From a virus: 37,366 nt of DNA. A program made the position numbers and the translations under genes. Numbering within the stretch: position 1 is the first letter of the stretch; the number at the start of each line of letters is the position of its first letter. This document shows, piece after piece, positions 22,090-37,366 of the stretch. The notes beneath the pieces were generated by a model. The model was not told where the DNA came from. It worked only from the letters and a program-made list of their open reading frames with translations, and ran no database searches. The stretch covers positions 1 through 37,366 of IMG/VR virus record IMGVR_UViG_3300024346_004772; one strand, written 5' to 3'.

Positions 22090-22101
22090 CTCCCCTTTTT
22101 T
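22076..22101. terminator. Bidirectional terminator at the convergent boundary
   Basis: AAGGGGAGT (22076-22084) pairs with ACTCCCCTT (22089-22097) across a 4-base loop, followed by T to 22102 on the plus strand. On the minus strand the same stem is followed by TTCTTC. It lies between the plus-strand stop at 22089 and the minus-strand stop at 22101, so it can end both transcripts. Confidence 0.82.
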
Positions 22102-25100
22102 TATCTAAAGAAACTTGATTCAAATGCTTTGACTGCCTCTCCTGGTTTCATGTTATAACCAGAGAAGCCCATAAGTTTTAAGAAAGCTGCCCAAGCTTTA
22201 TTATCTCCTTTTTCCCATACACCTGATTCTCTTTTATATTCTTCAGTGATGTTCCAAGGCATAACTTGATTTATAAACTTTATCAAACGGTCAACAGTAC
22301 TTGTCATAGCTGACGGTGACCTAAAGATACGGATAGCATCAATTGGGTTGATGTAAGAAGCTGTTTCTGATCTCATCCTAATGATCTCATAGACCATAAA
22401 GTTATATGCATAGCTTTCTTCCAGTGTAGTTTTTTCATCATCATCTGGATCTACTATAATTTGCGTTAGAATAAATCCTAATGTTGCAGCTCCAAGGACA
22501 ATACCCATTTCAGTAAGTGTCTTTCTAATCTGAGCTTTTTGGAAAGGTGTGTAACTTGACCAGTTCTTAATGATGTTATACTTGTATTGCTTTAAGTCTT
22601 TTAATAACATGTCAGCAAATGTTCTGTAGTATCCTTCTGTTGGTGATCCAATTTCATGATCCATAGAAGCTCTTTTAAATCTTCTTTTGTAACCAGGTAC
22701 AACATGCTTTCTATACATTAATGCTAGGCGACCCACAGAATACTTTTGCATAGTACCTTTATCAAAGTCATTATAGACACCATTCAGGTATTTATTGATA
22801 CCGTGAAGTCTAGCTTGGATATCTTGGCGGTAAGATTCACTAAATGGTACATATATTATTTCACCATTCTCATCAGTCTCAACTTGACCATTACTATCTG
22901 TTTTAGCAATTTTAATCTTAGTACTAATATCCTTTGCACCATATGCATTGTATGCTTCAAGTAAAGAGATCTCTTGGTTCTTAGCAACATCAAATACTTT
23001 AGTAGCATCTAAGATTGCACACATAGTAGAAACTTGTAATTCATATTCCCCAAAGTGCATGTTAAAGAATAATGTATCTGTTCTCATGAGTTTATTTAAT
23101 CTACTCATAGAAACTTTCTTACCATACTCATCTTTAAAGTTACCTTGCATAGGGTCATAAAGCTCAACCAGTTGGCCTAACAAACTTGTTGGCGCAGGTT
23201 TACCAAAGTCACCTAACACTCCAGGAATATTTTTTGCAACAAAAGCTTTACCTCTTCTTACATTCTTACCATTAAAGAATTGACCTCCGGCAGCTTCAAT
23301 AGCTAACTGAATATTACCTTGGAAGTTGTTAGCAATACCCTTAAGTAAGTCTGCCGCTAATGTGGTAAGTGCAGCTACTGACATTGCTGTATTGGTAATC
23401 TTTGTAAGAGATAAGCCTCCGAATATTTCTTCAGCTTTTTGCATCTCACCATAGACAACCATATTGATAAACTCATTTAAGTGCTTAGTAGAATATGCTT
23501 CACCATTCTGGCGTATATACTCCTCATAACCCATCTTGTTTGCAAATGCATCAAGTACAGCTTGACCTTTACTATTAGTTACAGGAACCTTACGGGCTCC
23601 AATAACTGTTTTCATCATAGAGATCTCAGCATTAACTTCATTAAGAGCTTCGTATTTATTTGCCATAGCACTAAATACAAGTACAGAAGATGTAAAGTCT
23701 AAAGAAACAGTTTTAGCATCCATTGGCTGAGTATAGTAGATTGGTAAGAATCTAACGTCCTCTTCAGAAATACTTCCTAGTTGAAATTCAATATCATAGT
23801 TCTGCATCTTAACTGCTTCACTAGCTTTGTTTACAACCAAATCTTTAATACCATTCTGCATTATTCTTTCAAGGTCGGTCTTCTCTATTGATGGTACACG
23901 GTAACCTTTCTGTTGACTCTCAGGTAGCTTGGATTGTGCCTCAAAGTAAATTTTTAATAACCTTTCATGGAACCTACCTTTTTCATTAATAGGAACATCA
24001 TTCTGGTTATACATTGCTTTCCACTTGCTACTGATATATTTGTCAGCCGGGAGGGCCAGGTCTCTTGCGTATACAATTCTTCCTTTTACCTTGAGTACAT
24101 TTTTCTTTTGCCACTCTTTGAATTCATCCTGAGATATAATACCTCTTTGTACATCTCTGTTTTTCTCAGAGATTATTTTTTCAATTTCCTGTCTTGACTT
24201 TGGTACAGTGTTATCTTCAAGCCATTGGTTTCTAGCTTCAAACCAAGCATCAATTTTAGCTTTCTCAGCTTTAGTTGCTCTTACCCCTACCGGAGTAGGA
24301 TAATCCCCTAAGGCTTTATACATTTCTCTTTCTGCTTGCTTGAATCTGTTGACATCATACTTCTGTACAAACTGAACTTCTTGGCGCGTTTCTTTTACCG
24401 TGCCGTCTGTGTCGTATATAGGAATGTCTACTACCTCATATATACCATCATAAAACTTTGCAGTATTGTCAGAAGAAGCTGGGGCAGTTGGGCGGTATTT
24501 TAAAAATGCTTCCACCAAGTCATCCCTTACCTCAATGTCTTTTTGCCTTGCAAATTCCAATTGACTTTTGATTGATTTTGCAAATAAGGCTAAGGCTGCA
24601 TCTGGCGAAGTGATTAGTGGTGATATTAGGAAGTCTACTACTCCTTCGTCTTTATATGCTTGTCTGAGTATTTTTGTCATTGAGTCTTCATCAATGTCAA
24701 ATGTTTCAAACATGTCTAGTCTAGACTGAAGCTTTTTGATTTCTTTTTCTTTGCGAGCATCTTTCATCTTAGGATTGTTCCTAATAGCTTCTATCTCAGC
24801 CTTCATAGCCTCTATCTCTTCTATGATTGTAGCGTCTTGAAGTTTTGATTTATATGCAACTAAGTATTTAGCGAGCATTGGGATTGCTTCACTGATTACT
24901 TTGAGTTTAACTTTATTACGGATAGAGATTGCATCAGAAAGCATTTTCTGCGGAGTCATTGGACCAGCTACACCTGCACCTTCTTCAGGTAAATTAAAGT
25001 AGTCCATGATGTCTGCAGAATCTATCTCATCTAGAATAGAGTAACCATTAACAAAGTCATTAATGGCTGTAAGCTCTCTTAATACATCTTTGTAGTCCAT

Positions 25101-25559
25101 ATTACCTTTATTAGATAATAGTGCACCAAATCTCTTCTTTACCTGCTTAGCTTTGTTATATGCATCAGATATAAAGATTGCAATTGATTCTACTCCGTCA
25201 GCTACTTCAATTGCTGTTTGTAGATCTTTTAATTTCTTTTGCTTAAACTTTTGATTCTGGATTTTTTTCTTGTTAAGAATCTCAATTTCTTTTGCCAAAT
25301 AAATTTTGATTTTTTGCATCAAGCCTTCAAGATCCTGTGCAGGAGTTTCAACCTTTTCTCCATTTATTTCATTGAAGTCATCATCATATTGTTTATCAGA
25401 AGAATAATCATTAAGATCCTCATTCTCCTCATAACCTTCCTCTACCCAAATTCTTTTAGCTTCAGCCTCAATCTCTGCTTCACTATTTAATCCCGGTGTT
25501 CTTAGTGCTTTATTATAGCACCACTTCCATTCTCTAGTATTTTTATTAGGACATTTCAT
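22101..25559 (-). CDS. Large probable virion protein with C-terminal membrane segment
   Basis: This 1152-residue protein begins MKCPNKNTREWKWCYNKALR. The N-terminal third is acidic to lysine-rich with long coiled-coil stretches (about 75-120 and 230-290: EEIEAMKAEIEAIRNNPKMK). The centre is mixed. Hydrophobic segments occur at about 716-740 (ITNTAMSVAALTTLAADLL) and about 1016-1033 (GIVLGAATLGFILTQIIV, then DPDDDEKT). Its place at the end of the polymerase block fits the cargo or ejection proteins that crAss-like phages package with their RNA polymerase. A coiled-coil protein with membrane-spanning helices could help carry the cargo across the cell envelope. This role is inferred from context. 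It begins right at the stop of the 300-residue gene (TAAATG). Confidence 0.7.
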   Translation of the reverse strand: MKCPNKNTREWKWCYNKALRTPGLNSEAEIEAEAKRIWVEEGYEENEDLNDYSSDKQYDDDFNEINGEKVETPAQDLEGLMQKIKIYLAKEIEILNKKKIQNQKFKQKKLKDLQTAIEVADGVESIAIFISDAYNKAKQVKKRFGALLSNKGNMDYKDVLRELTAINDFVNGYSILDEIDSADIMDYFNLPEEGAGVAGPMTPQKMLSDAISIRNKVKLKVISEAIPMLAKYLVAYKSKLQDATIIEEIEAMKAEIEAIRNNPKMKDARKEKEIKKLQSRLDMFETFDIDEDSMTKILRQAYKDEGVVDFLISPLITSPDAALALFAKSIKSQLEFARQKDIEVRDDLVEAFLKYRPTAPASSDNTAKFYDGIYEVVDIPIYDTDGTVKETRQEVQFVQKYDVNRFKQAEREMYKALGDYPTPVGVRATKAEKAKIDAWFEARNQWLEDNTVPKSRQEIEKIISEKNRDVQRGIISQDEFKEWQKKNVLKVKGRIVYARDLALPADKYISSKWKAMYNQNDVPINEKGRFHERLLKIYFEAQSKLPESQQKGYRVPSIEKTDLERIMQNGIKDLVVNKASEAVKMQNYDIEFQLGSISEEDVRFLPIYYTQPMDAKTVSLDFTSSVLVFSAMANKYEALNEVNAEISMMKTVIGARKVPVTNSKGQAVLDAFANKMGYEEYIRQNGEAYSTKHLNEFINMVVYGEMQKAEEIFGGLSLTKITNTAMSVAALTTLAADLLKGIANNFQGNIQLAIEAAGGQFFNGKNVRRGKAFVAKNIPGVLGDFGKPAPTSLLGQLVELYDPMQGNFKDEYGKKVSMSRLNKLMRTDTLFFNMHFGEYELQVSTMCAILDATKVFDVAKNQEISLLEAYNAYGAKDISTKIKIAKTDSNGQVETDENGEIIYVPFSESYRQDIQARLHGINKYLNGVYNDFDKGTMQKYSVGRLALMYRKHVVPGYKRRFKRASMDHEIGSPTEGYYRTFADMLLKDLKQYKYNIIKNWSSYTPFQKAQIRKTLTEMGIVLGAATLGFILTQIIVDPDDDEKTTLEESYAYNFMVYEIIRMRSETASYINPIDAIRIFRSPSAMTSTVDRLIKFINQVMPWNITEEYKRESGVWEKGDNKAWAAFLKLMGFSGYNMKPGEAVKAFESSFFR

Positions 25560-26462
25560 TTAACACAAAGTATTTAATAGAGTTTCAGTAATTTTATTTA
25601 AGTCTTCTTGGGTTTCAGCATAGAGTAGATCTTCATAAATGTCTGCAGTATCAATACCTTTTTCAGCAAGATAGTTATCAATACCTTGTTCCTTTATCAT
25701 CTTCATGATATATCTGAACAGTCTATCTCTTTTTGCTTCATCTAATGGTTCACCTGGCATTTCAATTTCAGGCACAATGGTTCCTGATTCTAAATCAACA
25801 TTCCTCATAAATGTTAAGTTAGTATCAGCATCAATTAGATTATAAAGATTGTTTTTATTTAAAGCCCACTTAAAGTTACCAGCCATAAATACACTTGGTT
25901 TTAAACCTTTGTTTTTTTCAACTAGGCTTTTATAAACATCCATGCTTTGTGCTAATGGTGGTCTAGTATCATCTTCTTCCTCAAGCTCTTCTTGTATATT
26001 TACTATTGGATTTATATTGACAATAACTGTATTAGGGTTTTTGGTTCTTCTTAAAGAAAAGATATCAGGGAAAGTTGATTCAAGTTTTTCCATGATAGCC
26101 AAGTTAGGTTTGAATACAGTGTTAAAAGTCTCAGCTGTTAAAGCAGATGATCCTCCGTATAACCAACCTGTAGTTACAAAATAGGTTCCATTATGTTTGC
26201 TGATCACACCTTTAAGCATGCTCTTTAATCCATCTTCTGAAAGATAAGGATTGATTTCTAAGCCTCTTCTTACTTTCTTAAAGATATCATTCTTCTGCTC
26301 TGTAAGCCAGTCCTTTACTTCTGTAGCTGTAGGAATATAGTAATTATCCTCATTGCTTTTTTTATTTATAGGATAAGCACGAACAAAAGCTTCAGCTAAA
26401 TTATCTCCATAGATATTTGCTAAAACTTTATAACCTCTGTCTGACTTATTTACACAGCTCAT
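25560..26462 (-). CDS. Unknown protein in polymerase/cargo block
   Basis: This 300-residue acidic protein begins MSCVNKSDRGYKVLANIYGD and ends ETLLNTLC. No enzyme motif is recognised. The middle contains an acidic linker (NIQEELEEEDDTRPPLAQSM), and the C-terminus is helical. It starts on the stop of the 762-residue gene (TAATG) and is followed immediately by the 1152-residue gene, so the three are translationally coupled. Its first residues share a Met-x-Cys-x-Asn pattern with the other two. Because neighbouring genes in this position encode packaged proteins in crAss-like phages, it may be a virion protein. Function unknown. Confidence 0.65.
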   Translation of the reverse strand: MSCVNKSDRGYKVLANIYGDNLAEAFVRAYPINKKSNEDNYYIPTATEVKDWLTEQKNDIFKKVRRGLEINPYLSEDGLKSMLKGVISKHNGTYFVTTGWLYGGSSALTAETFNTVFKPNLAIMEKLESTFPDIFSLRRTKNPNTVIVNINPIVNIQEELEEEDDTRPPLAQSMDVYKSLVEKNKGLKPSVFMAGNFKWALNKNNLYNLIDADTNLTFMRNVDLESGTIVPEIEMPGEPLDEAKRDRLFRYIMKMIKEQGIDNYLAEKGIDTADIYEDLLYAETQEDLNKITETLLNTLC

Positions 26463-28750
26463 TACAACTTACATTTTAAAGTGTCAATGTAGTCTTCTAC
26501 ATCTTGATTGAATGGAGCATCTTCATATGCTGCAATCAGATCATCTAAATTACCTAATATATCTTTTTCCTGTTGGCTTAGCTCATTATAAAAGTTACTA
26601 ATTTCTGCGCTATTAACATCTATAACAGCATCATTTAATTTACTTTCAGGGTTAAAAATGTTCTCATTTGGAATAAATCTGTTGTAATCCCAGATATCTT
26701 TTAATCTTCCAAATTGTAGTTTTGCATTAAATGTGTTCTGCCAAGTAGCTATTCTAAGCTTAGTTCCTGAATCAAGAGTTCTTTCAGAACTACGTACATT
26801 ATCTTCAGTAATTTTTGGATATGTGAATATATCAATTAACTTAGCTTCAACTTCAGGGTTTGTATGTGAATCCTTTTTAGGAATATAACTACTTACTATA
26901 TTACCTTTTGCATCTACAATATCATAACCCGTTATTTTATTTGTACTTCCAAATAAATTAAGATTTTTAATTGTATAACCTTCTGGAGCAATTAACCATG
27001 TGTTAGTTTGATAGTCATCATTAGTAATGTTTCTAATAAAGATGTTATCAGGATAGAGTTCATTAAATATTCTTTTACTTTCCTCTGTTGAGAGAGGACT
27101 TACCCAGTCAATGTCATGCATTTGATTTTCATTAGGTCTATAAACACTTCCTTGTTCAGAAAGTGTAATACTACCTGTTAAAATAAAATACTCAGACATT
27201 TTTTCTACAATAGAATTTCCAAACGGATCAGACTTTAATGCTTCTTCTAAACCAATTTTTGAAACAGGTTTTATAGTTCCTGGTTTAAACACTGAACTTG
27301 TTATCAATGCTTGGTTTTGTAAAAGAACATTGTCAGCAATAAAGGCTATATTTTTATTTATTCTTTTAAGCTTAATAGAATCTAAGAAGTTAAAGAATTG
27401 TCTAATTAAATTTCTAATAGCTTCAATAAGAGACTTAGGCATTTCTGTATCAGTTTTGCTATGGAGTTCTCTTGAAATTAAATCTCCCATAGCTTCAAAT
27501 AACTCATCATTACTTAATCTATTAAATATAGAAGACTTTTTCATTGCAGAAGTAATCTCTGCAACAAGCGGGTTGTGTTGCATCATATATGCAATAATCT
27601 TTCCTGCCTGCTGAGGATAGTCCTGTTGATTATTTTTATTTACATAGACAATTTTATTTAGAATATCTACATAGGCTAAACTATCAATACCTAATTTATC
27701 TTGCATATCTTGGACAACTTCAGTCTTAATACCAAACTTAGAAAGATACATTGCAAGCTCTTTATTTAATTCAGTATCTAATTGGTTATAGATTTCTGGA
27801 TTGTTTAATATATCCGTTCTATTTATTACAACCTTGTTATTTGCACTATTTTTTATTATCTGCTCAACGGTATCCTTTACATATTTTTTTTCGGGCTCTA
27901 CATATTTTTCTCCTGTGGCTTCTATTTGTTTTCTTTCTTCTTCTCTTTTACGTTCAAGTCTTGCTTTTAACTTAGGAGATTTTTCAATGATAATATTTTG
28001 TCTTTCTTGTTCGGCAGCATCTATCTTTAATCTTTTCTGTAGTTTGTAGGCATTATAGTCGTAAATACCTAATTCTTCTAAAAGACCATATAAGTTATCA
28101 AACTCTTTATTTTCATATGCTTGTTGTAATTTACCTATCAGACTCCAATAGTTAAAGAATGTATCATACTTTATTATGTCTTGAGTTGTAATCCTTTCAA
28201 CCGGCTTGTTAAATGCTTTTTCAGCAGTTTCTTTAGAACTGAAGTATAGATTTTTAATCATGTCTTCACCTCTAAAGTTGTACTGTTTACCAACATTTAA
28301 TTTATAAAGTCCTTTCTTTTCAAGCATAGCACCAATGTCATCTGGAACTGAAGCCATCATGTCTGCGTTAGCCATTAGTACATCCATAGAATTAAACATC
28401 TCTCTAATACTAGGAGCACTAATAAGTCTTGCTTTAAAAATGTTGTTTAATACATCCCATTCACCAAAGATATAAGTCTGTTTATGTTTAAAAACCTGAA
28501 GGCTATCAAACATATCATTAAACTTTTCATAAGTGATTCCTTTACCCTCTCTTTTTCTATCCATGAGATTAATATAATTCTCATAGATCTTTTGTCTTTC
28601 CTCTTCTGGAACATTTACAAAAGTGCCTCCGTTTTGGATTACAAAATCTTCATTAGTAAGTTTTGTAAATTCAACTTCAGCCAATAAAGGATTGCCTACT
28701 CTTCTTAGAATAGTTTGAAATGCTGGGTTATTTGGATTTATACAACTCAT
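26462..28750 (-). CDS. Large protein with degenerate zincin-like and nucleotidyltransferase-like segments
   Basis: This 762-residue protein begins MSCINPNNPAFQTILRRVGN. The middle (about 370-450) reads like the zincin domain of large phage polyvalent proteins: LNKIVYVNKNNQQDYPQQ, with QQAGK where active members have HExxH or EEAAH, so it is likely inactive. Residues about 525-548 contain TGSITLSEQGSVYRPNE and HDIDW, resembling the GS and DxD metal-binding motifs of minimal nucleotidyltransferases. The N-terminal third contains charged coiled coil (about 240-300). It lies directly after the RNA polymerase gene with a one-base gap. I infer a packaged multi-domain protein; both domain calls are tentative. 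Confidence 0.65.
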   Translation of the reverse strand: MSCINPNNPAFQTILRRVGNPLLAEVEFTKLTNEDFVIQNGGTFVNVPEEERQKIYENYINLMDRKREGKGITYEKFNDMFDSLQVFKHKQTYIFGEWDVLNNIFKARLISAPSIREMFNSMDVLMANADMMASVPDDIGAMLEKKGLYKLNVGKQYNFRGEDMIKNLYFSSKETAEKAFNKPVERITTQDIIKYDTFFNYWSLIGKLQQAYENKEFDNLYGLLEELGIYDYNAYKLQKRLKIDAAEQERQNIIIEKSPKLKARLERKREEERKQIEATGEKYVEPEKKYVKDTVEQIIKNSANNKVVINRTDILNNPEIYNQLDTELNKELAMYLSKFGIKTEVVQDMQDKLGIDSLAYVDILNKIVYVNKNNQQDYPQQAGKIIAYMMQHNPLVAEITSAMKKSSIFNRLSNDELFEAMGDLISRELHSKTDTEMPKSLIEAIRNLIRQFFNFLDSIKLKRINKNIAFIADNVLLQNQALITSSVFKPGTIKPVSKIGLEEALKSDPFGNSIVEKMSEYFILTGSITLSEQGSVYRPNENQMHDIDWVSPLSTEESKRIFNELYPDNIFIRNITNDDYQTNTWLIAPEGYTIKNLNLFGSTNKITGYDIVDAKGNIVSSYIPKKDSHTNPEVEAKLIDIFTYPKITEDNVRSSERTLDSGTKLRIATWQNTFNAKLQFGRLKDIWDYNRFIPNENIFNPESKLNDAVIDVNSAEISNFYNELSQQEKDILGNLDDLIAAYEDAPFNQDVEDYIDTLKCKL

Positions 28751-28751
28751 T

Positions 28752-31700
28752 TTAGTAACATTCTTTTAGTTTGGTGATTACCAGTTCTCTATCTTTTGTA
28801 GCTAATGCATCATTAATGTAAGCAAGCGCTTGCTCAGGTGACATGCTGTATTTATTTGAGAAGTTTGTCAAAATTGTATCTCTTTCTTCTTTATTAAAGT
28901 CTTCTAATGAATTAAACAAATCACTTGTTTCAAGATCTGTTGCAGCTGCTTCAGTTAACCCCGCATCAGCTAACATAGCTTTAATTTGAGGAAGATTCTC
29001 TCTTGTAGCATCTTTTCTTACAGTTCCTTGTCTTCCAAGGTTTATACCCTCAGCCGGGATAACTAATTTAATATTATCTGAAGCCTGTACAGTTTTAATT
29101 AACAACGGCATTATTTCTTCTACTGACCCTTCACCATGACCTAATCCAGCTAATGGTAACAAATAAGTTCTATCTGCATTACCTCTTGCTGTCATAATCA
29201 AGCTTCTTAGGCTTTCTTTAAGAAGATCCATATTGTTATTCATACCCATTGAATCACTCCATACTTTCTTAACAGGAAGTTGGACTACGTTATCTGTAGC
29301 TTTGAACACACCGTCACCTTGTTTAATAAGACCTTTTGCTTTAGCTGCTTGTGCTAAACCTGCGCCATGTACACCACCTAAATTAGTTGTGATTACAGGA
29401 ATACCAGGTAAAGAGAATATGTCACCTTCAAGTACTTTTGATGGAGATTCTCTCAATACTGTACCTGGAGACATGAAGTCTTCCATACCAGCAAGCTCAT
29501 CATCAGATAATCCTTCAAGGAAACTTTGTACTGAAGTTTGCGCAACACTTGCAAATGGATCCACAGTATAGTTTTTGTAGCTTGACTTGGTAGCATTCAT
29601 TGTATTATAAATTCTATCTAGTGTTTCCACATTAACATCATTAGCTAAGAATGCTCCTGATGCATTTTCCATTACGGCAATAAATGCTTCTGGGTCAAGA
29701 ATTTTTGTAAAGCCAAGTTTGCTATAACCTACACCATGCTGATAGAACATTAGCATTGAGAAGTTCTTAAATACATCACTGATTCTTTTATTGTCAGCTT
29801 TGTCTTTTACTTTTCTAACTGTTGGGTCAGCTAATTGTTTTAAGTTTTTATAATATTCTGTAGCGGTATCACCTTTAGCTGTACCCTTATCGTTTAATTC
29901 AAGAACATTAACATCTTTCTCAAATTTAGCAGGTGCTAATTGAGCTAAGACAGGATAATTATACTTAATGTTTTGATCTTCAAACTCAGAAATAATATTC
30001 ATTACCATGTCAGTATATGAGTACTTAGTAGTACCCATAATGAATGCGTGGTTAAAGCTACTAATAAGAGCACGTTGGGTAAGATAGCTATCAGTTGCTT
30101 CAGGATAAGCAGATTTAAAATATGCTTTCTCCATTGCAAACTTCACATAGCTTTCAAATGTTGGGAATGGATTATCTTTTATATCAAAAGTATCCTGATC
30201 TGTATTTGCATAACTATCTGGACTGTTGTTATTACTTAAGAAAATTTTTGAAGCATAGTCATTTTGTAACTTAGCCAAATTAACTTGATAACCTTTATCG
30301 GTTAATGTAATAGCAGGTCCTTGACTAACTTCATTTACAGGATATGTATGTACTTCTTCCGGTAATGTTACAGGGCGTCCATTCTCATCTGTATAGTTAG
30401 ACATGGTATTTTGGAAAATATAATTTACTACAGCATTGTTAAATGTATTTGTAAATCTCTCTTGACCCTTAATTCCAACTCCATATTTTTGAGCAATTGA
30501 ATCTTTATTCTTAGTGATAACTTTATCAATATAGTTTGATATAGTATCATTTAATCTTAATGCAAATAGTGGGTTTGTAAGATTAAGTATCATGTCACTC
30601 TTATAGAATGATGACAAGATAGATTTATGTCTTAACCTATCTAAGAAATCACTATCTACTTTAGATACTTCAGATAATAAAGACAAAGCTTCATCTCTCT
30701 TCTTAACATGTAATACAGTATCAAGCATTCCAGTATCTGGAGTGAATGCCATCTCAAGTGCATCCATACCACTGAATTGTTTTTCTAACTGAATCATACG
30801 CATTAAGATTGCAAGATTTTGTATTGTAGGTCTCATACCTTCTTTTACATAGGTTTTAAGTTCTGATTCCGTTAATACTTTATTCTCACTTCCAAAAGCC
30901 ATTTTCCATGCAGCCTGTCCTGCATAATAGAAGTTATCATTGTTTGCAATACCAAATGATTTAGTAAAATACTTTTTCTGGTCTGCATATGAAACACCTT
31001 CTTCTCCGGCTTTAAGTTCTACAATGTCACCTAATGGGAAATCTTTTGATTTAAAGATTCTCTTACCTGTAGCACTCATTGGTTGAGTCAACTCACCATT
31101 TCTTGATAGAACAAAAGTGTATTTTTTATTTAAGTCTTCTTTTTTAAGAACTCCAATAATGTCTGCTAATCTGTGGCTGTTTGCATATTTTGCTAATTCT
31201 TTAACTGTCTTTTCAGAAAGACCTTGCTTAACCATTTCATTAATAGTAAGTCTAGCAGCAGCTGCTTTTACTTGATGACTTGCAACAGGATTATCCATTA
31301 GTTTAGCAGTTGATCCACCAAGGTATACCTGGTTATCAATATATCTAGCAATCCATGGGTTATTTACAAATGCAAATACCTCAGATACTTTTGCTCCAGA
31401 TTCAATTAAGTGATTGATAGTTGGAAGAGCCTCTTTAATAATCTTTAAGATGAATGGGAATGGATTCTTTGCACGGTCAAGTAATCCTTGTAGACCATGT
31501 GAGAAGATATCTCCAATTTTTTCTCCTTCAATATTGTTTTGATGTGACAATGAAACTACTGTTTGACCTTTTGAATTTGTTGTGGTCTGGTGAGCAATTG
31601 GCATTACAACATCATAATCAATATCAAGCTCATCATACTTTTTATCTTCATCATTCCAAATAGTAGCCTTATAAGAAGCTGGCATTACAGCACCAACACT

Positions 31701-34700
31701 TTTAAATAAAGAGTGTACTTTATTCTTTTTAGCCATTATCCCAAGCGGTAAGTTACCTGATAAGTTTTTCTCATGAACACTTAAGTTATATTCTTCATCA
31801 AATATTCTTGATGGGCTCATTACTGTCTTATCTCCTGCCGCATTTAATCTTTCAGCTTCATTATGAGCATTTGCTTTTGGATTATAGATTGAAGAGTTTT
31901 CTTGGTAAAAAGAAACTTCATCCTCAACTAAGTATGTGTTATTAGGTTTTGTTAATGTAGCATATTTCTCAGGTAAAGAAAGAATCTTAGCTGTTTGGCG
32001 GATCAATTCATTTTGAGCATATTTTTTATACTGTGCAATAAGTGAGCCTGCACTTCTAAACTCTTTATTCTTTCTTTGTTTAAAACTTGCTCCGTTAGCT
32101 TTTTTAACCATTGCTTTTAGTTCTTCCGTTGATTCAGCAACTTTGCCAACCATTGTGCCATCACTATTTAAGTTAGGTAGCATGAAAGAAATTTTATCAA
32201 CGTCAAAGTCAGATCCAGCTTTAGCTACAATTTCTGTAGGAACAATAACTATGTTACCATAACTAGGATCTATAAAATGCCATACTTCTGCAAACTCAAT
32301 AGTGTTATCTGCATCTGTAGGGATACGTGGACCAGCAATTGTAATAAGTTCTCTGTTTTTTTCAAGCCATTCATCATTTTTAATTAGATCATTAAGCCTG
32401 TCAACATTTCCTATTTTTTCACCATCAGGGTGAATAATGTTTAATAGATTTAAAAAGTCTCCATGTAGAGTAATAGCTACTTTCATAGCCATTGTGTTAC
32501 CTCTTGAACCATCTTCATTAAATATAGTTCTATAGAAAGGTAAGTTATTAGAACCAAGATACTTTTTAATTAACTCATCATTCTTTTTAATAGCTTCATC
32601 TCTTTCATATTCACTGTCCCAAATACCATTATAGAATGTAGATGGTGCTTGAATTAATGCTTCACCTTTAGTCTTTTGTTTAATTACACTTTTCTGAATT
32701 CTATTAACAATAATTTTTTCAAGTGTATCTGCCTCTGGATGGATTGAGAAATCCATTGACAAGTTACCAGTTACTCTTGTATCTAATAGTGTAATTAAAT
32801 GTTCTGGAACTTCTCTTGCTCCAAGTTCTTCTCTAATTAGCTCAATGAACTTATCAATTTGACCAGTATATGTTTCTGTCTTAGGGTCATATTCATAACC
32901 AATTTTATTAAGAAGCTCTAATGTTAAAATTTCTGTATAGTCATCAACTGCAGATTTATAACCAGCAGCTACTTCTTTATGTTTGTCAGCAACTTCACCT
33001 ACATTAAATAAACCATCTAATAATAGTACACGTTTCTGTGTTGGATAGCTAATCTCTCCTTTAAACTTAGTGTTGATAGCAGTTACATCTTTAAGATACT
33101 CTAAGTAAATTTTATTAAGTTTTACTGGAGCATCAGCTGAAACTGCTTTTTCATCACTACCCGGTTCAAAAATATTATCAAATGTACCATCCATAGTAAG
33201 AGTAGATACTTTTGATCCTGATCCAAATGCGTAGTATTGCATGTTAGACTTTAACATCTTTAAGTGAAGATCATAAAGTTTTGTACCTGGTTTAGCTAAC
33301 GTAGGAATAATTGGCGTTACCGCAAACTTGTGCATCCCTGTAGTAGCAATTGGTGCATTTGCAATTGAACCATAGTAATGTAATTTATAAACAGGGAAGA
33401 ACTCTTTTACTTTTTTAGGGTCTACTTCTTCACCATTTATGATTTGCTGATACAATGCTTCTTGTGCAGTTGACCATTTGTCATTCATGAATCTTAAGGT
33501 TCTGTATGCATCAAATGTCATAAATGCAGCTCCATCAGACTCAACCATTTTCTTATAAGCTTTAGCATCTTTAGCTAATTTCTTATCAACCTCTTGTTTT
33601 AATTTCTTAGGGTCAGAAATAATTGGAGAAAGGTCAGCATAGTATTTTTCTTCCCATGCGTCAAGCATATCATCTAAGTAAACAGAAAGTCTTTCAGCAT
33701 CTGCAATTACTCCGGTATTGAGTGAACCGTCCATTACAAACTGATTAACTGTATCATCCTCTAGTTCTTTTGCTAACTTAGAAGCATATGTCTTTTTGTT
33801 AAGTACATTATTGACAAAGTCCTGCATGTACTCATCATTTAAGAAAGGATCACCATCTGATGTAGAACCAGGTACACGTTTTGAAGCAGCCTCTTTATCA
33901 TGGTCAAATTGAGCAGCATCCCCATTTATAAGAGAGAACATTTCAAATTTGTGAATCCAAGAATTGTACAAGTATCCTTTTAATAAAATTAAGTCAGAAG
34001 CTTGTTGATTTTTAGAATTTAAACCTTTAGGGTCAATACCAGCTTTTTCATATAACTGATTGTCTACATAACTTAATTTGGTAAACTCATTTCTATATAA
34101 GCTCTCCGCCTTTTCTTTAAAGTAGTTAACAATATCTTTTTGGATATCCAAGTATAGATCTTGATTACTTCTAATGTATGTTGGCAAATCAATTGTTGAA
34201 TTTGATACTAACTTATATAGTTTATTTTTAGTTGGTGTTGTAAGTATATTATCAAATGCTGTAAATACTTCTCCAGCAAGTAGAGGGCTACCGTCTTTCT
34301 TTTTACCTACTTCTCTGTTGTATCCTATAATATTTTTAAGCTCAGTAGGATTTTGTTTAAAGTATCTGATTCTATCAAATTCTACAGCAATATAGTCTAA
34401 GAAATAACCACCAACAGCTACAATTTCACCTGGTGTAAGTTCATCTGCATTTTTAGAATTAAACTTGTTGAGGTCAATGTATAAATTTTGGTCAACACCA
34501 TTTGTAATACCATTAACAACAACTTTCATTTTACTACCTATCTGTCTTATACCAAATGCTGATTTCTTTTCAGCATGGCGCATAAACTCAGCAATACCAT
34601 TTAAGCCAAATGTGTGTACTTCTTGAAATAGTTTTCCTGTCTTATCTAAATCAGCGGTAGTAATACCGTCTAATCCTGCAATTTGAGTACCACTAGTTTG

Positions 34701-37366
34701 AATTAGTTGTAAAACTTTATCACCTTTTTTATCAAGTGATTCATTTGTTGTATCAAATAAGGCACCAATAACTTTAGATCTTAAAGTAAAGAATGATTTA
34801 CCTGGTTTAAAGTGTGACATGTATCCATACTTAGGATCTGTCCATAAATCAGAAAGATTCTCAACAGTATTTAAAGCATCTACAGTAACAGTAACTTGAC
34901 TATGATTTATATTTTCATATACTTTATTCCCATCAGGCAATAATACAGCAGGATTTGCGTTCTCATATCCATATTGTAATTGTAGCTCTGCTATTCTTTT
35001 TAAGATATTTTTTTCAGCAACATCTTTTTCAAAGCTTTCTAATATTCCTTTTGGGATTTCAGTTCTTAAAACTCCAATAGGATTAGCTATAAATTTAGCT
35101 AAGAAGTCTTTTTGTTTTGATGTTGCTTCAGGGTTTTGTTGAATTTGATAAAAGTCCTTTACAATATCATAGATGTATGGTAAGCCATAGTACTCTGACT
35201 TATTCTGTAAATTATCTTTAATTGGGTCAAGAGTATCAAGCTTAATACCTAAAGCTGCTGCAAACTGCATTGACTTTTTAATATCTAACTGATCTAGATA
35301 TTTTTTATCTTGGAAATCAAAAACAACATTTTCTAGATTTAGAATAGCTTGATTTTTATCATTCTTACTGATATATTTATTAGGCGTACTACTTTTAAAC
35401 AGTGCTTCAAATCTTCTAATAGTAGAATCAACTGCTAATGAAGACTCAGTAACTTCACTTTCAAAACCAGTGATTTTTGTATCTACATCTCCAAACAGGT
35501 TCATAGTTTGACCATATTGTGGGAATACAGTAAACTGCCAGTACTTAATACTTGGTTTTGCAAACGTTTGCCAGAATGAATTACTTAGCTTCTGCTCAAA
35601 TAAGTTTGTGATACCTTTTGGATTAGGTAACTTAGTTTCAATTAGCTGCTTAAGCTCAGGGAAGTTTTTACTTTCTTTTTCTAAGATTTCATAAACCTTT
35701 TGTCTGTCTCTTATGCCGCCAATATTCTTAACTATGATACCCCAAATCTTTTTAAAATCGGCGGGTTCTTTAAAGCCCAATCTATTGTATGAGATATTTC
35801 CTTCACGGTTAACTTTATGAAGACTCTTTAATAGATAGATTACTTCTTTAGAAGCAAGTTGAAGAATTGATTTTTTATTAGCAGCCTCTCCACCAAATGG
35901 GGTCTCACTGTCATGAGTTTGATTTTCTTCATCCTCATCTATCTCTTCACCTTCAGCATCAAGCATGTCTTTATCCAAATAATATTTAGCTGATCCAATA
36001 TCAAAGCTTGAGTGCTCTAAATGATAGGCAATCATACCAGAAGGTTTTGAACCTTTAGAATCCCATTGTGGGTCTCCATAGTTATCAATTGCCGCTTGTA
36101 AGATTCTGATATTATCTAAGATAAGTTCTTGTTCTGCACTTAAATCAAATTCAGGTACATCTTTTAATTCAATCTCAGGAATGTAATTTTTTGCACCGCC
36201 TTTAATATAGTTATCAAGTTGTACTTGAGCATCTTCTAAATTAGATACAACAAGAATATTAACCGGTTTACCTTTCTCTTCAATAGTTTTATGAGAGTAG
36301 AAATCTCCTACAATCTTAATACCATGCCATGACTCACCTCTTACTCTTGTTCCTTTTTTAATCTCAGGAGTAACTTTGTCAAATCCATCCATTTGAGATT
36401 GTAAGAATACATACTTATCACTATTATCAGTAGTCTTTAGTACGGCAACAGCTTCATTTTGAAGTTCCTCTAATGTATTGATTTTACTAAACACATTGAT
36501 AGATTCATCTCTATGAAGTTTTCTTTTAAACTCATCAAGCTTTTCTTCTAATCTTTCTTTGACCACCTCATATGTAACACCTCTTTCTTCCGGATCTAAC
36601 AATAAACCCACAGTTCCAGATTTAAGACTTGTATAATTACCAGTTTCTCTAGCTTCTGCAAGTCTTTCATTAAAGTAATCATCAATGATGTCTGAAATAA
36701 TCATATCCATTGAATTAGATATTAAGTTAGAATCTTGCTTACTTAATGCTGACTCACTTGGATTATCAACTTTTGCAGCACCCCTGTCTAATTCAAAGAA
36801 GTCTACATTGGCAATGTTAGCCTGGTATGATCTTACAAATGTCTTTTTATTTGAAGAGTAGTTTAATTTCTCAAACATCTCTCTTACTGCAGGAACATTC
36901 ATAACATCTGTTACAACTTCTGTAGGATTGATTGGTTTTAAACCGAACAAACTTCTCAAGAAGTTTAAGATTTTTCTAAACAATTTATTTTTTACTGGTG
37001 ACCCAGTTTTAATATAATTGCTCTTCATATATGTTCTGAAGTCTTCAGCAAGCATTTCATCAATCTCCTTATAACTCATAGAAGCATAAGGATTGTTTCC
37101 GTTCTTATCTGTGAATTCTTGAACTTCACTGTATAAGTCATATTTTTCTTGGCGTGTGAGATACAACTGGCTAAATGCATGCCATGCCTCATGATAGATA
37201 TCTACAAGTGTACCTTTGTCAGGATTAATTTGAATTTTTGCAATCTTATCAGAGCCCGCTAATGTGGCACCACTTACAATAAACTTTGCAAATACATCTG
37301 AGTTTACCAAGTTGTATGCATGCTCTAGTTCAATATGTTTTTGTAACTCTTTACCAAACTTACTGT
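28752..37366 (-). CDS. Giant single-chain RNA polymerase-like polyvalent protein (5' end outside window)
   Basis: At least 2870 residues are visible; the frame is open to the right edge. A TTG at 37310 lies inside the frame and is not needed as a start, because the codons before it (SKFGKELQKHIELEHAYN) are clearly coding. Residues below count from that TTG. Near the N-terminus IYHEAWHAFSQLY (38-50) has HExxH, with an Glu-rich helix EIDEMLAEDF (82-91): a zincin metallopeptidase motif. At about 1700 (nt 32196-32210) SDFDVDKISFM is the DxDxD metal site of two-barrel RNA polymerases, preceded by RIPTDADN. The C-terminus (about 2639-2750) resembles a macro domain. In crAss-like phages this class of enzyme is packaged in the virion and transcribes early genes. 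Confidence 0.85.
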   Translation of the reverse strand, partial: SKFGKELQKHIELEHAYNLVNSDVFAKFIVSGATLAGSDKIAKIQINPDKGTLVDIYHEAWHAFSQLYLTRQEKYDLYSEVQEFTDKNGNNPYASMSYKEIDEMLAEDFRTYMKSNYIKTGSPVKNKLFRKILNFLRSLFGLKPINPTEVVTDVMNVPAVREMFEKLNYSSNKKTFVRSYQANIANVDFFELDRGAAKVDNPSESALSKQDSNLISNSMDMIISDIIDDYFNERLAEARETGNYTSLKSGTVGLLLDPEERGVTYEVVKERLEEKLDEFKRKLHRDESINVFSKINTLEELQNEAVAVLKTTDNSDKYVFLQSQMDGFDKVTPEIKKGTRVRGESWHGIKIVGDFYSHKTIEEKGKPVNILVVSNLEDAQVQLDNYIKGGAKNYIPEIELKDVPEFDLSAEQELILDNIRILQAAIDNYGDPQWDSKGSKPSGMIAYHLEHSSFDIGSAKYYLDKDMLDAEGEEIDEDEENQTHDSETPFGGEAANKKSILQLASKEVIYLLKSLHKVNREGNISYNRLGFKEPADFKKIWGIIVKNIGGIRDRQKVYEILEKESKNFPELKQLIETKLPNPKGITNLFEQKLSNSFWQTFAKPSIKYWQFTVFPQYGQTMNLFGDVDTKITGFESEVTESSLAVDSTIRRFEALFKSSTPNKYISKNDKNQAILNLENVVFDFQDKKYLDQLDIKKSMQFAAALGIKLDTLDPIKDNLQNKSEYYGLPYIYDIVKDFYQIQQNPEATSKQKDFLAKFIANPIGVLRTEIPKGILESFEKDVAEKNILKRIAELQLQYGYENANPAVLLPDGNKVYENINHSQVTVTVDALNTVENLSDLWTDPKYGYMSHFKPGKSFFTLRSKVIGALFDTTNESLDKKGDKVLQLIQTSGTQIAGLDGITTADLDKTGKLFQEVHTFGLNGIAEFMRHAEKKSAFGIRQIGSKMKVVVNGITNGVDQNLYIDLNKFNSKNADELTPGEIVAVGGYFLDYIAVEFDRIRYFKQNPTELKNIIGYNREVGKKKDGSPLLAGEVFTAFDNILTTPTKNKLYKLVSNSTIDLPTYIRSNQDLYLDIQKDIVNYFKEKAESLYRNEFTKLSYVDNQLYEKAGIDPKGLNSKNQQASDLILLKGYLYNSWIHKFEMFSLINGDAAQFDHDKEAASKRVPGSTSDGDPFLNDEYMQDFVNNVLNKKTYASKLAKELEDDTVNQFVMDGSLNTGVIADAERLSVYLDDMLDAWEEKYYADLSPIISDPKKLKQEVDKKLAKDAKAYKKMVESDGAAFMTFDAYRTLRFMNDKWSTAQEALYQQIINGEEVDPKKVKEFFPVYKLHYYGSIANAPIATTGMHKFAVTPIIPTLAKPGTKLYDLHLKMLKSNMQYYAFGSGSKVSTLTMDGTFDNIFEPGSDEKAVSADAPVKLNKIYLEYLKDVTAINTKFKGEISYPTQKRVLLLDGLFNVGEVADKHKEVAAGYKSAVDDYTEILTLELLNKIGYEYDPKTETYTGQIDKFIELIREELGAREVPEHLITLLDTRVTGNLSMDFSIHPEADTLEKIIVNRIQKSVIKQKTKGEALIQAPSTFYNGIWDSEYERDEAIKKNDELIKKYLGSNNLPFYRTIFNEDGSRGNTMAMKVAITLHGDFLNLLNIIHPDGEKIGNVDRLNDLIKNDEWLEKNRELITIAGPRIPTDADNTIEFAEVWHFIDPSYGNIVIVPTEIVAKAGSDFDVDKISFMLPNLNSDGTMVGKVAESTEELKAMVKKANGASFKQRKNKEFRSAGSLIAQYKKYAQNELIRQTAKILSLPEKYATLTKPNNTYLVEDEVSFYQENSSIYNPKANAHNEAERLNAAGDKTVMSPSRIFDEEYNLSVHEKNLSGNLPLGIMAKKNKVHSLFKSVGAVMPASYKATIWNDEDKKYDELDIDYDVVMPIAHQTTTNSKGQTVVSLSHQNNIEGEKIGDIFSHGLQGLLDRAKNPFPFILKIIKEALPTINHLIESGAKVSEVFAFVNNPWIARYIDNQVYLGGSTAKLMDNPVASHQVKAAAARLTINEMVKQGLSEKTVKELAKYANSHRLADIIGVLKKEDLNKKYTFVLSRNGELTQPMSATGKRIFKSKDFPLGDIVELKAGEEGVSYADQKKYFTKSFGIANNDNFYYAGQAAWKMAFGSENKVLTESELKTYVKEGMRPTIQNLAILMRMIQLEKQFSGMDALEMAFTPDTGMLDTVLHVKKRDEALSLLSEVSKVDSDFLDRLRHKSILSSFYKSDMILNLTNPLFALRLNDTISNYIDKVITKNKDSIAQKYGVGIKGQERFTNTFNNAVVNYIFQNTMSNYTDENGRPVTLPEEVHTYPVNEVSQGPAITLTDKGYQVNLAKLQNDYASKIFLSNNNSPDSYANTDQDTFDIKDNPFPTFESYVKFAMEKAYFKSAYPEATDSYLTQRALISSFNHAFIMGTTKYSYTDMVMNIISEFEDQNIKYNYPVLAQLAPAKFEKDVNVLELNDKGTAKGDTATEYYKNLKQLADPTVRKVKDKADNKRISDVFKNFSMLMFYQHGVGYSKLGFTKILDPEAFIAVMENASGAFLANDVNVETLDRIYNTMNATKSSYKNYTVDPFASVAQTSVQSFLEGLSDDELAGMEDFMSPGTVLRESPSKVLEGDIFSLPGIPVITTNLGGVHGAGLAQAAKAKGLIKQGDGVFKATDNVVQLPVKKVWSDSMGMNNNMDLLKESLRSLIMTARGNADRTYLLPLAGLGHGEGSVEEIMPLLIKTVQASDNIKLVIPAEGINLGRQGTVRKDATRENLPQIKAMLADAGLTEAAATDLETSDLFNSLEDFNKEERDTILTNFSNKYSMSPEQALAYINDALATKDRELVITKLKECY

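Follow-up and report, generated by a model that had tools for sequence, protein, structure and literature searches.

Macrodomains of the ALC1-like class, such as the DarG macrodomain of the DarTG2 antitoxin (PDB 5M31, 5M3E and 5M3I) and TARG1/OARD1 (4J5S), have a catalytic lysine (Lys80 in DarG, Lys84 in TARG1), which is the proposed nucleophile of this class (PMC7050489). DarG removes ADP-ribose linked to thymine in DNA, Lys80 and Asn22 being its positions most sensitive to replacement (PMC5179494), and NADAR removes guanine ADP-ribose (PMC11543638). For viral NAD-ADP-ribose systems, ART, macro, NADAR and Nudix proteins are predicted to be packaged and to act early in infection; outside RNA-virus polyproteins, viral macro, NADAR and SLOG domains typically stand alone, and crAss phages and A1S are not mentioned in their description (PMC9503650). 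Polyvalent proteins of phages and conjugative elements have been described as well (PMC5512222, where the terms NADAR, AlkB, SLOG and crAss do not occur). Virions of crAss001 contain the RNAP-associated proteins gp47, gp49 and gp50, as identified by mass spectrometry (PMC10172136), and three proteins of the homologous locus in phi14:2 bear a structural annotation based on MS/MS. The virion RNA polymerases (vRNAPs) of N4-like phages are devoid of cysteine, a feature that has been related to their route through tail and periplasm (PMC3715699); N4 gp50 has no cysteine in the 3342 residues read.

The DNA analysed here as a whole, called the window, is a contig of 37,366 bases (IMG/VR virus record IMGVR_UViG_3300024346_004772). 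Its forward strand bears a replication module comprising a DnaB-like helicase, a Sak4-like annealing protein, a primase, an exonuclease and a DNA polymerase, and its minus strand, from 37364 to 22101, encodes a giant vRNAP and three further genes:

28752..37364, minus strand: giant vRNAP ORF, 2870 residues, 5'-truncated by the contig end (right end of the record)
37179..37193, minus strand: zincin-type HEAWH motif, residues 58-62 of the giant
32196..32210, minus strand: DFDVD (DxDxD) RNA polymerase motif, residues 1719-1723 of the giant
28755..29570, minus strand: variable C-terminal slot beyond the conserved RNAP core, the core end being set by profile
28755..28961, minus strand: C-terminal segment of 69 residues behind the predicted macrodomain, holding the giant's only cysteine (residue 2869, 28758-28760)
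26462..28750, minus strand: cargo-type gene downstream of the giant; product of 762 aa whose sole cysteines are residues 3 and 760
25560..26462, minus strand: cargo-type gene that follows; product of 300 aa whose sole cysteines are residues 3 and 300
22101..25559, minus strand: final gene of the series; product of 1152 aa with cysteines at residues 3, 14 and 847 but a cysteine-free C-terminus

The giant has matches in the RNAP catalytic gene of p-crAssphage and in further crAss-like phage proteins. It is assigned to the crAss-like vRNAPs by its DxDxD motif together with homology to crAss RNAP proteins, and the RNA polymerase identity proposed in an earlier, sequence-only reading of this DNA holds on the same grounds, the DFDVD motif and the match to the p-crAssphage RNAP gene product. 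The vRNAPs of crAss001 (gp50, 2412 residues) and phi14:2 (gp077, 2180 residues) are of the same RNAP type, belong to the same locus and are packaged as cargo (PMC10172136; phi14:2 MS/MS annotation), but they are much shorter than the giants considered here. The zincin-type motif is kept, as HEAWH(A/G)F(S/T)Q, in the N-terminal part of most related giants, and p-crAssphage gp45 is annotated as a fusion to a zincin protease. Like the polyvalent proteins, the giants are large, multidomain and probably injected and carry a zincin-type motif, and related tails contain ART-PolyVal; unlike in the polyvalent proteins, it is the virion RNA polymerase that carries the cassettes, and exchange takes place at its C-terminal end. 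This architecture, several effector-type domains in one large protein, is seen in the window and its relatives, and its delivery is presumed.

At 29070-29396, near the C-terminus of the polymerase, the sequence-only reading had marked two loops about 60 residues apart and attributed them to a macro-type, ADP-ribose-binding domain. Both are found exactly there on the minus strand, with a spacing of 58 residues, and the predicted domain has the following parts:

28962..29438, minus strand: predicted DarG/TARG1-type macrodomain, residues 2643-2801 of the giant, from family alignment, AlphaFold2 model, fold searches and profile against the PDB
29337..29396, minus strand: loop 1, VITTNLGGVHGAGLAQAAKA, residues 2657-2676
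29382..29384, minus strand: Asn2661, aligned with DarG Asn22
29268..29270, minus strand: Lys2699, aligned with the catalytic Lys80 of DarG
29259..29261, minus strand: Trp2702, aligned with DarG Trp83
29103..29162, minus strand: loop 2, LLPLAGLGHGEGSVEEIMPL, residues 2735-2754, with GLGHG (2740-2744) aligned with DarG 117-121

As a single sequence, the window tail matches no Pfam family, yields nothing meaningful among PDB sequences, finds only short weak pieces in Vibrio phages among phage records, and had no match in a first IMG/VR scan. Relatives were found by two routes, through close polymerase relatives and through a degenerate DNA pattern for TNLGGxHGxG. Nine macro family members are aligned over the whole domain (alignment A2); alignment A3 adds two Vibrio phage proteins (27% identity), one of which comes from a phosphatase-annotated family. 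Both loops and an invariant lysine between them are common to eight relatives. The PDB sequences best matched by the A3 profile are Mtb DarG (7.2e-6), Taq DarG (1e-4) and T. africanus DarTG (1.7e-4), and further ones are TTHA0132 (0.025) and TARG1 (0.11). With the numbering of Taq DarG fixed through the residues named in PMC5179494, the Lys, Asn, Trp and Gly-loop columns are matched in the A3 profile alignment with DarG. The Lys2699 column is invariant in all ten sequences aligned; the Trp2702 column is not, the residue being missing from one branch (L055/L058/L060). The ADP-ribose pocket residues conserved in A2, i.e., the loop-1 Asn with GxGxA and the Gly-rich loop 2, are matched to contact residues of DarG, and DarG Lys29 is not conserved, alanine or arginine being found instead. 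The NCBIfam DarG model matches five of the nine family members (best 1.4e-6), and the Pfam Macro model PF01661 matches three (best 0.0027). For the window tail alone, NCBIfam gives A1S_2505_Nterm (2e-5) and DarG (0.12), both below the cut-offs, and PF01661 gives no match at E up to 1. The macro assignment is based on the family profile and the fold, and the window's own sequence lies below library cut-offs.

The AlphaFold2 model, made from nine sequences, has a mean pLDDT of 76.7 and a pTM of 0.76, with pLDDT below 50 at model residues 71-74, which adjoin the active-site lysine. Foldseek against the PDB places VEEV macro (6.7e-4), Taq DarG (8.6e-4), Mtb DarG and TARG1 at the top, and its rows are nearly all macrodomains, with TM of about 0.5. 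The VIA-align matches (Z 8.7-10.6) are also mostly macrodomains, including Taq DarG (Z 8.7) and Mtb DarG (Z 8.8), and the DarG matches span 121 residues at 3.0 A. Also listed among the fold matches are de novo designed serine hydrolases. The values of these predicted-structure matches are moderate and the match list is almost uniform, and the tail domain almost certainly adopts the macro fold (three-layer alpha/beta/alpha). The earlier assignment to a macro-type domain is borne out, with the family profile against the PDB, AlphaFold2, Foldseek and VIA-align in agreement and no prediction lacking the macro fold; the proposed ADP-ribose-binding loops gain support from profile and predicted structure, in which their residues are aligned with those of DarG. 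The assignment is now narrowed to the DarG/TARG1 class, and the domain (28962-29438) is larger than the two loops that had been marked; its membership in a set of exchangeable cassettes, described below, also goes beyond that reading.

The loop pair and its domain are more than a chance resemblance, in view of the loops and lysine shared among relatives, the dN/dS and the profile matches to macrodomains of known structure. The dN/dS of the window against its two nearest relatives is 0.154 and 0.158 (167 codons); the macrodomain is under purifying selection. An assembly error as the origin of the fusion was rejected, as this domain also lies within the vRNAP reading frame at three other loci (L006, L011 and L064). 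The macro family, used to scan bacterial genomes, found no relative there, which left no host neighbourhood to read. A macro domain of the same kind is present in four separate phage proteins of 536-1198 residues, some of them cut by contig ends (L055, L057, L058 and L060), which have zero cysteine and are possibly ejected proteins of other phages. The L058 protein additionally has cpYpsA above the cut-off and a weak YAcAr match.

The window domain has in common with DarG and TARG1 the predicted fold, the invariant lysine, the loop-1 asparagine and the Gly-rich loop 2, and with DarG also the tryptophan behind the lysine. It differs from DarG in lacking the DarT-binding C-terminal domain, only positions 69-175 of the 338-position DarG model being matched, and from both in its location on an RNA polymerase and in an identity of only about 20% over the structural alignment. 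From the aligned active-site residues and the model, the predicted macrodomain is probably an active ADP-ribosyl hydrolase. It might instead be a reader, which would position the polymerase by binding ADP-ribose, an RNA that is NAD-capped or ADP-ribosylated, or a host protein bearing ADP-ribose, without hydrolysing its ligand. Many macrodomains are indeed readers (PMC7050489), and the window family is without DarG Lys29. Two points argue against a reader and make it quite improbable: all ten sequences retain the lysine used for catalysis in DarG and TARG1, and the other occupants of the slot are catalytic families (NADAR, AlkB and ART).

The window domain also matches the A1S_2505 family (NCBIfam NF049995) with 26.0 bits (E 8e-6). 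The cut-off of 45 bits is not reached, and a plain A1S_2505 protein was rejected on this ground, though the two are homologous. Profile-profile comparison of A1S_2505 with the window family gives 96% and E 4e-9, with LPVK on LPTK. An A1S_2505 cassette folded from 31 sequences has a pLDDT of 96.1, with TARG1 as the top match by both programs and Z up to 11.8, so that the model makes A1S_2505 very likely a TARG1-like macrodomain too. This family occupies the same slot in related vRNAPs, and differs in that the window domain runs about 30 residues further at the C-terminal end. In the cassette at L003:15149-15559 (alignment A6), the PTK lysine is conserved. A1S_2505, which has no functional name in NCBIfam, would hereby gain a fold and a likely active site.

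The tails of related giants vary in what they carry. Eight relatives, whose RNAP cores are 69-75% identical in their best segments, differ behind the core: one has a macro-like domain, and the rest have A1S_2505, NADAR, AlkB or others. A scan with the core alignment led to 80 loci. In 67 non-redundant tails, Pfam at 1e-3 detects an AlkB-type dioxygenase in 17, the commonest cassette of the slot, NADAR in 9, cpYpsA in 4 and ART-PolyVal in 4, and NCBIfam detects A1S_2505 in 13. NADAR and AlkB in the slot reach Pfam cut-offs, and ART-PolyVal is above its cut-off in L013. At least one cassette is found in 42 of 68 tails, in 33 combinations, as counted with HMMs seeded from the cassettes and with four cassette labels given by eye. 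By-eye labels for four cassettes (SLOG-like with TNHSGG, DUF4326-like with FGNPF, ASCH-like, and an unnamed one with MLARNGSL) were not confirmed by Pfam, PDB profiles or comparison with cpYpsA. These four cassettes are recurrent and match no library used (L065:13463-14065, A7; L075:14903-15295, A8; L129:13709-14128, A9; L071:13172-13462). The vRNAP tail of L106 (12443-15811) carries a RecD2/PIF1-like helicase, and that of L123 (12623-13801) a kinase-like ATPase (AAA_33, Zeta-type).

Exchange of cassettes is evident at several distances. On a quick tree of the cores, ten NADAR tails need ten changes and three macro-like tails need three. Over 4428 bases, including the A1S cassette, L013 and L014 have 99.8% identity; different cassettes follow in the two, after which identity is 93%, and both breakpoints of the swap lie in TQP-type linkers. 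The window and L011 have cores of 30% identity and macro cassettes of 82% (76% in DNA); likewise, L002 and L073 share a cassette of 98% identity on cores of 40%, and, conversely, L117 and L121 combine cores of 94% identity with AlkB cassettes of 43%. All 58 TQP[ST] motifs in cassette-bearing tails lie outside the cassettes, compared with 4 such motifs in 188,957 residues of the cores, and these stretches may serve as flexible linkers and recombination sites. There is hardly any doubt that the tail is an exchangeable slot and the macrodomain one cassette among several.

Cysteine is almost absent from these proteins. The window giant has a single one in 2870 residues, and other proteins of the window have scattered cysteines near 1%. 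The cassette tails contain none in 37,972 residues outside the last twelve, and the A1S domains none in 3427 residues within giants versus 9 in 790 in stand-alone proteins (p 3e-7, a value that ignores kinship among the sequences). Because the cassettes are exchanged horizontally, their purging of cysteine is independent evidence of passage through the tail with the polymerase. From the homologues found in virions and the total cysteine depletion of the cassettes, packaging and ejection of the cassette together with the polymerase can be inferred, and by this analogy the macro cassette is in all likelihood co-ejected.

The main reading is that a DarG/TARG1-type macrodomain, an exchangeable cassette on the virion RNA polymerase, acts in four steps, and the whole chain is given a probability of roughly 0.45. 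The polymerase would be packaged in the virion and, still joined to the cassette, be ejected into the host. ADP-ribose would be bound in the pocket that loops 1 and 2 make up in the predicted fold. Lys2699 would act as a nucleophile, as is thought for DarG Lys80, and ADP-ribose would be released from a DNA or RNA base. In this way, ADP-ribose that DarT-like host toxins attach to phage nucleic acid may be removed at a time when the phage has not yet made enzymes of its own. Nucleic-acid-linked ADP-ribose is tentatively taken as the main substrate, at somewhat less than even odds, because DarG, the nearest structure, acts on thymine, NADAR of the slot acts on guanine, and AlkB is a base-repair family. 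AlkB is a family of nucleic-acid enzymes engaged in base dealkylation and repair, for which we know of no role in ADP-ribose signalling. Some cassettes of the slot are unassigned, and need not act on nucleic acids.

As the main alternative, the same macrodomain might degrade soluble ADP-ribose derivatives, such as cyclic ADP-ribose variants or ADP-ribose-1''-phosphate, and disarm a host signalling or toxin defence. Such activity has been argued to be the main role of macro, NADAR and SLOG domains from phages at large (PMC9503650). A relative of the window domain precedes the cpYpsA SLOG domain in the L058 protein, and cpYpsA occurs in 4 of the 67 vRNAP tails. The nearest structures, DarG and TARG1, speak against it, DarG working on thymine-linked ADP-ribose in DNA, as does the prevalence in the slot (17 of 67) of AlkB, a nucleic-acid enzyme family, and soluble derivatives are considered a rather unlikely target. 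RNA end repair or NAD salvage, in which the domain would process ADP-ribose phosphate left by tRNA repair and ride on the vRNAP for packaging only, is also conceivable in that macro and NADAR domains have been connected with RNA repair in phages (PMC9503650) and the L123 slot holds a kinase-like ATPase; but no RNA ligase or KptA-like gene was identified nearby among those window genes scanned, and fast cassette turnover is more typical of conflict than of housekeeping, which makes such a role highly improbable.

The counter to host ADP-ribosylation suggested in the sequence-only reading is plausible, given the DarG-type active-site residues and the NADAR and AlkB that this slot holds elsewhere. 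Because NADAR, AlkB or other cassettes take this position in related phages, the slot can be seen as an interchangeable set of decontamination tools coupled to the enzyme that has to read the template first. That the DarG-like domain sits where relatives exchange enzymes with comparable tasks suggests a set of tools delivered to disable host defences as soon as infection begins. If so, certain crAss-like phages would bring in enzymes for counter-defence or nucleic-acid repair as exchangeable parts of an injected RNA polymerase, with protection in place before the first phage gene is read, and the list of modules would be a guide to host attacks on uncultured phages (thymine and guanine ADP-ribosylation, base alkylation).

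The few cysteines that are retained lie at the protein ends. A cysteine is present within the last twelve residues in all 61 complete giants of the related loci, and nearly all of their remaining cysteines are within the first 14 residues. At junctions between neighbouring proteins, a C-terminal cysteine upstream and an N-terminal cysteine downstream are both present in 77 cases, both absent in 2 and discordant in none, and the protein upstream of the giant, readable in 46 cases, has a cysteine at its end in every one. In total, 123 junctions have both cysteines, 2 have neither and none is discordant (window, L065-L144, crAss001 L145, phi14:2 L146 and p-crAssphage L147). Each set of cargo proteins therefore reads as a linear chain with matching ends. 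The terminal cysteines might possibly couple the proteins by disulfides, the C-terminal one of each to the N-terminal one of its successor, into a train that is pulled out in order; a shared packaging or contact motif is the alternative explanation of the two. Disulfides have been described in capsid and tail proteins of crAss001 and none among its cargo in the main text of PMC10172136. A literature search, with most subscription journals outside its reach, found no report of terminal-cysteine coupling of cargo. A wider scheme, in which such a train leaves through the tail in order, and cysteine-purged, base-decontaminating enzymes (macro, NADAR and AlkB) in the slot at the rear of the polymerase clear the template for it in a transcription-coupled removal of host-made DNA or RNA modifications, is speculative and on present evidence improbable. 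Neither the slot nor the cysteine pattern was part of the earlier finding, and both would surprise a specialist; cysteine purging with terminal cysteine pairs could provide a sequence signature for recognising ejected proteins, and perhaps their order. The pattern extends to the described phages. In phi14:2, gp078 has its single cysteine at its last residue, 1797, gp077 has cysteines at 3 and 2179, and gp076 has a single one at 3. In crAss001, the single cysteine of gp47 is at 2339 of 2341, gp50 has cysteines at 5, 1334 and 2404, and that of gp49 is at 5. In p-crAssphage, the terminal cysteine pair is retained together with internal cysteines.
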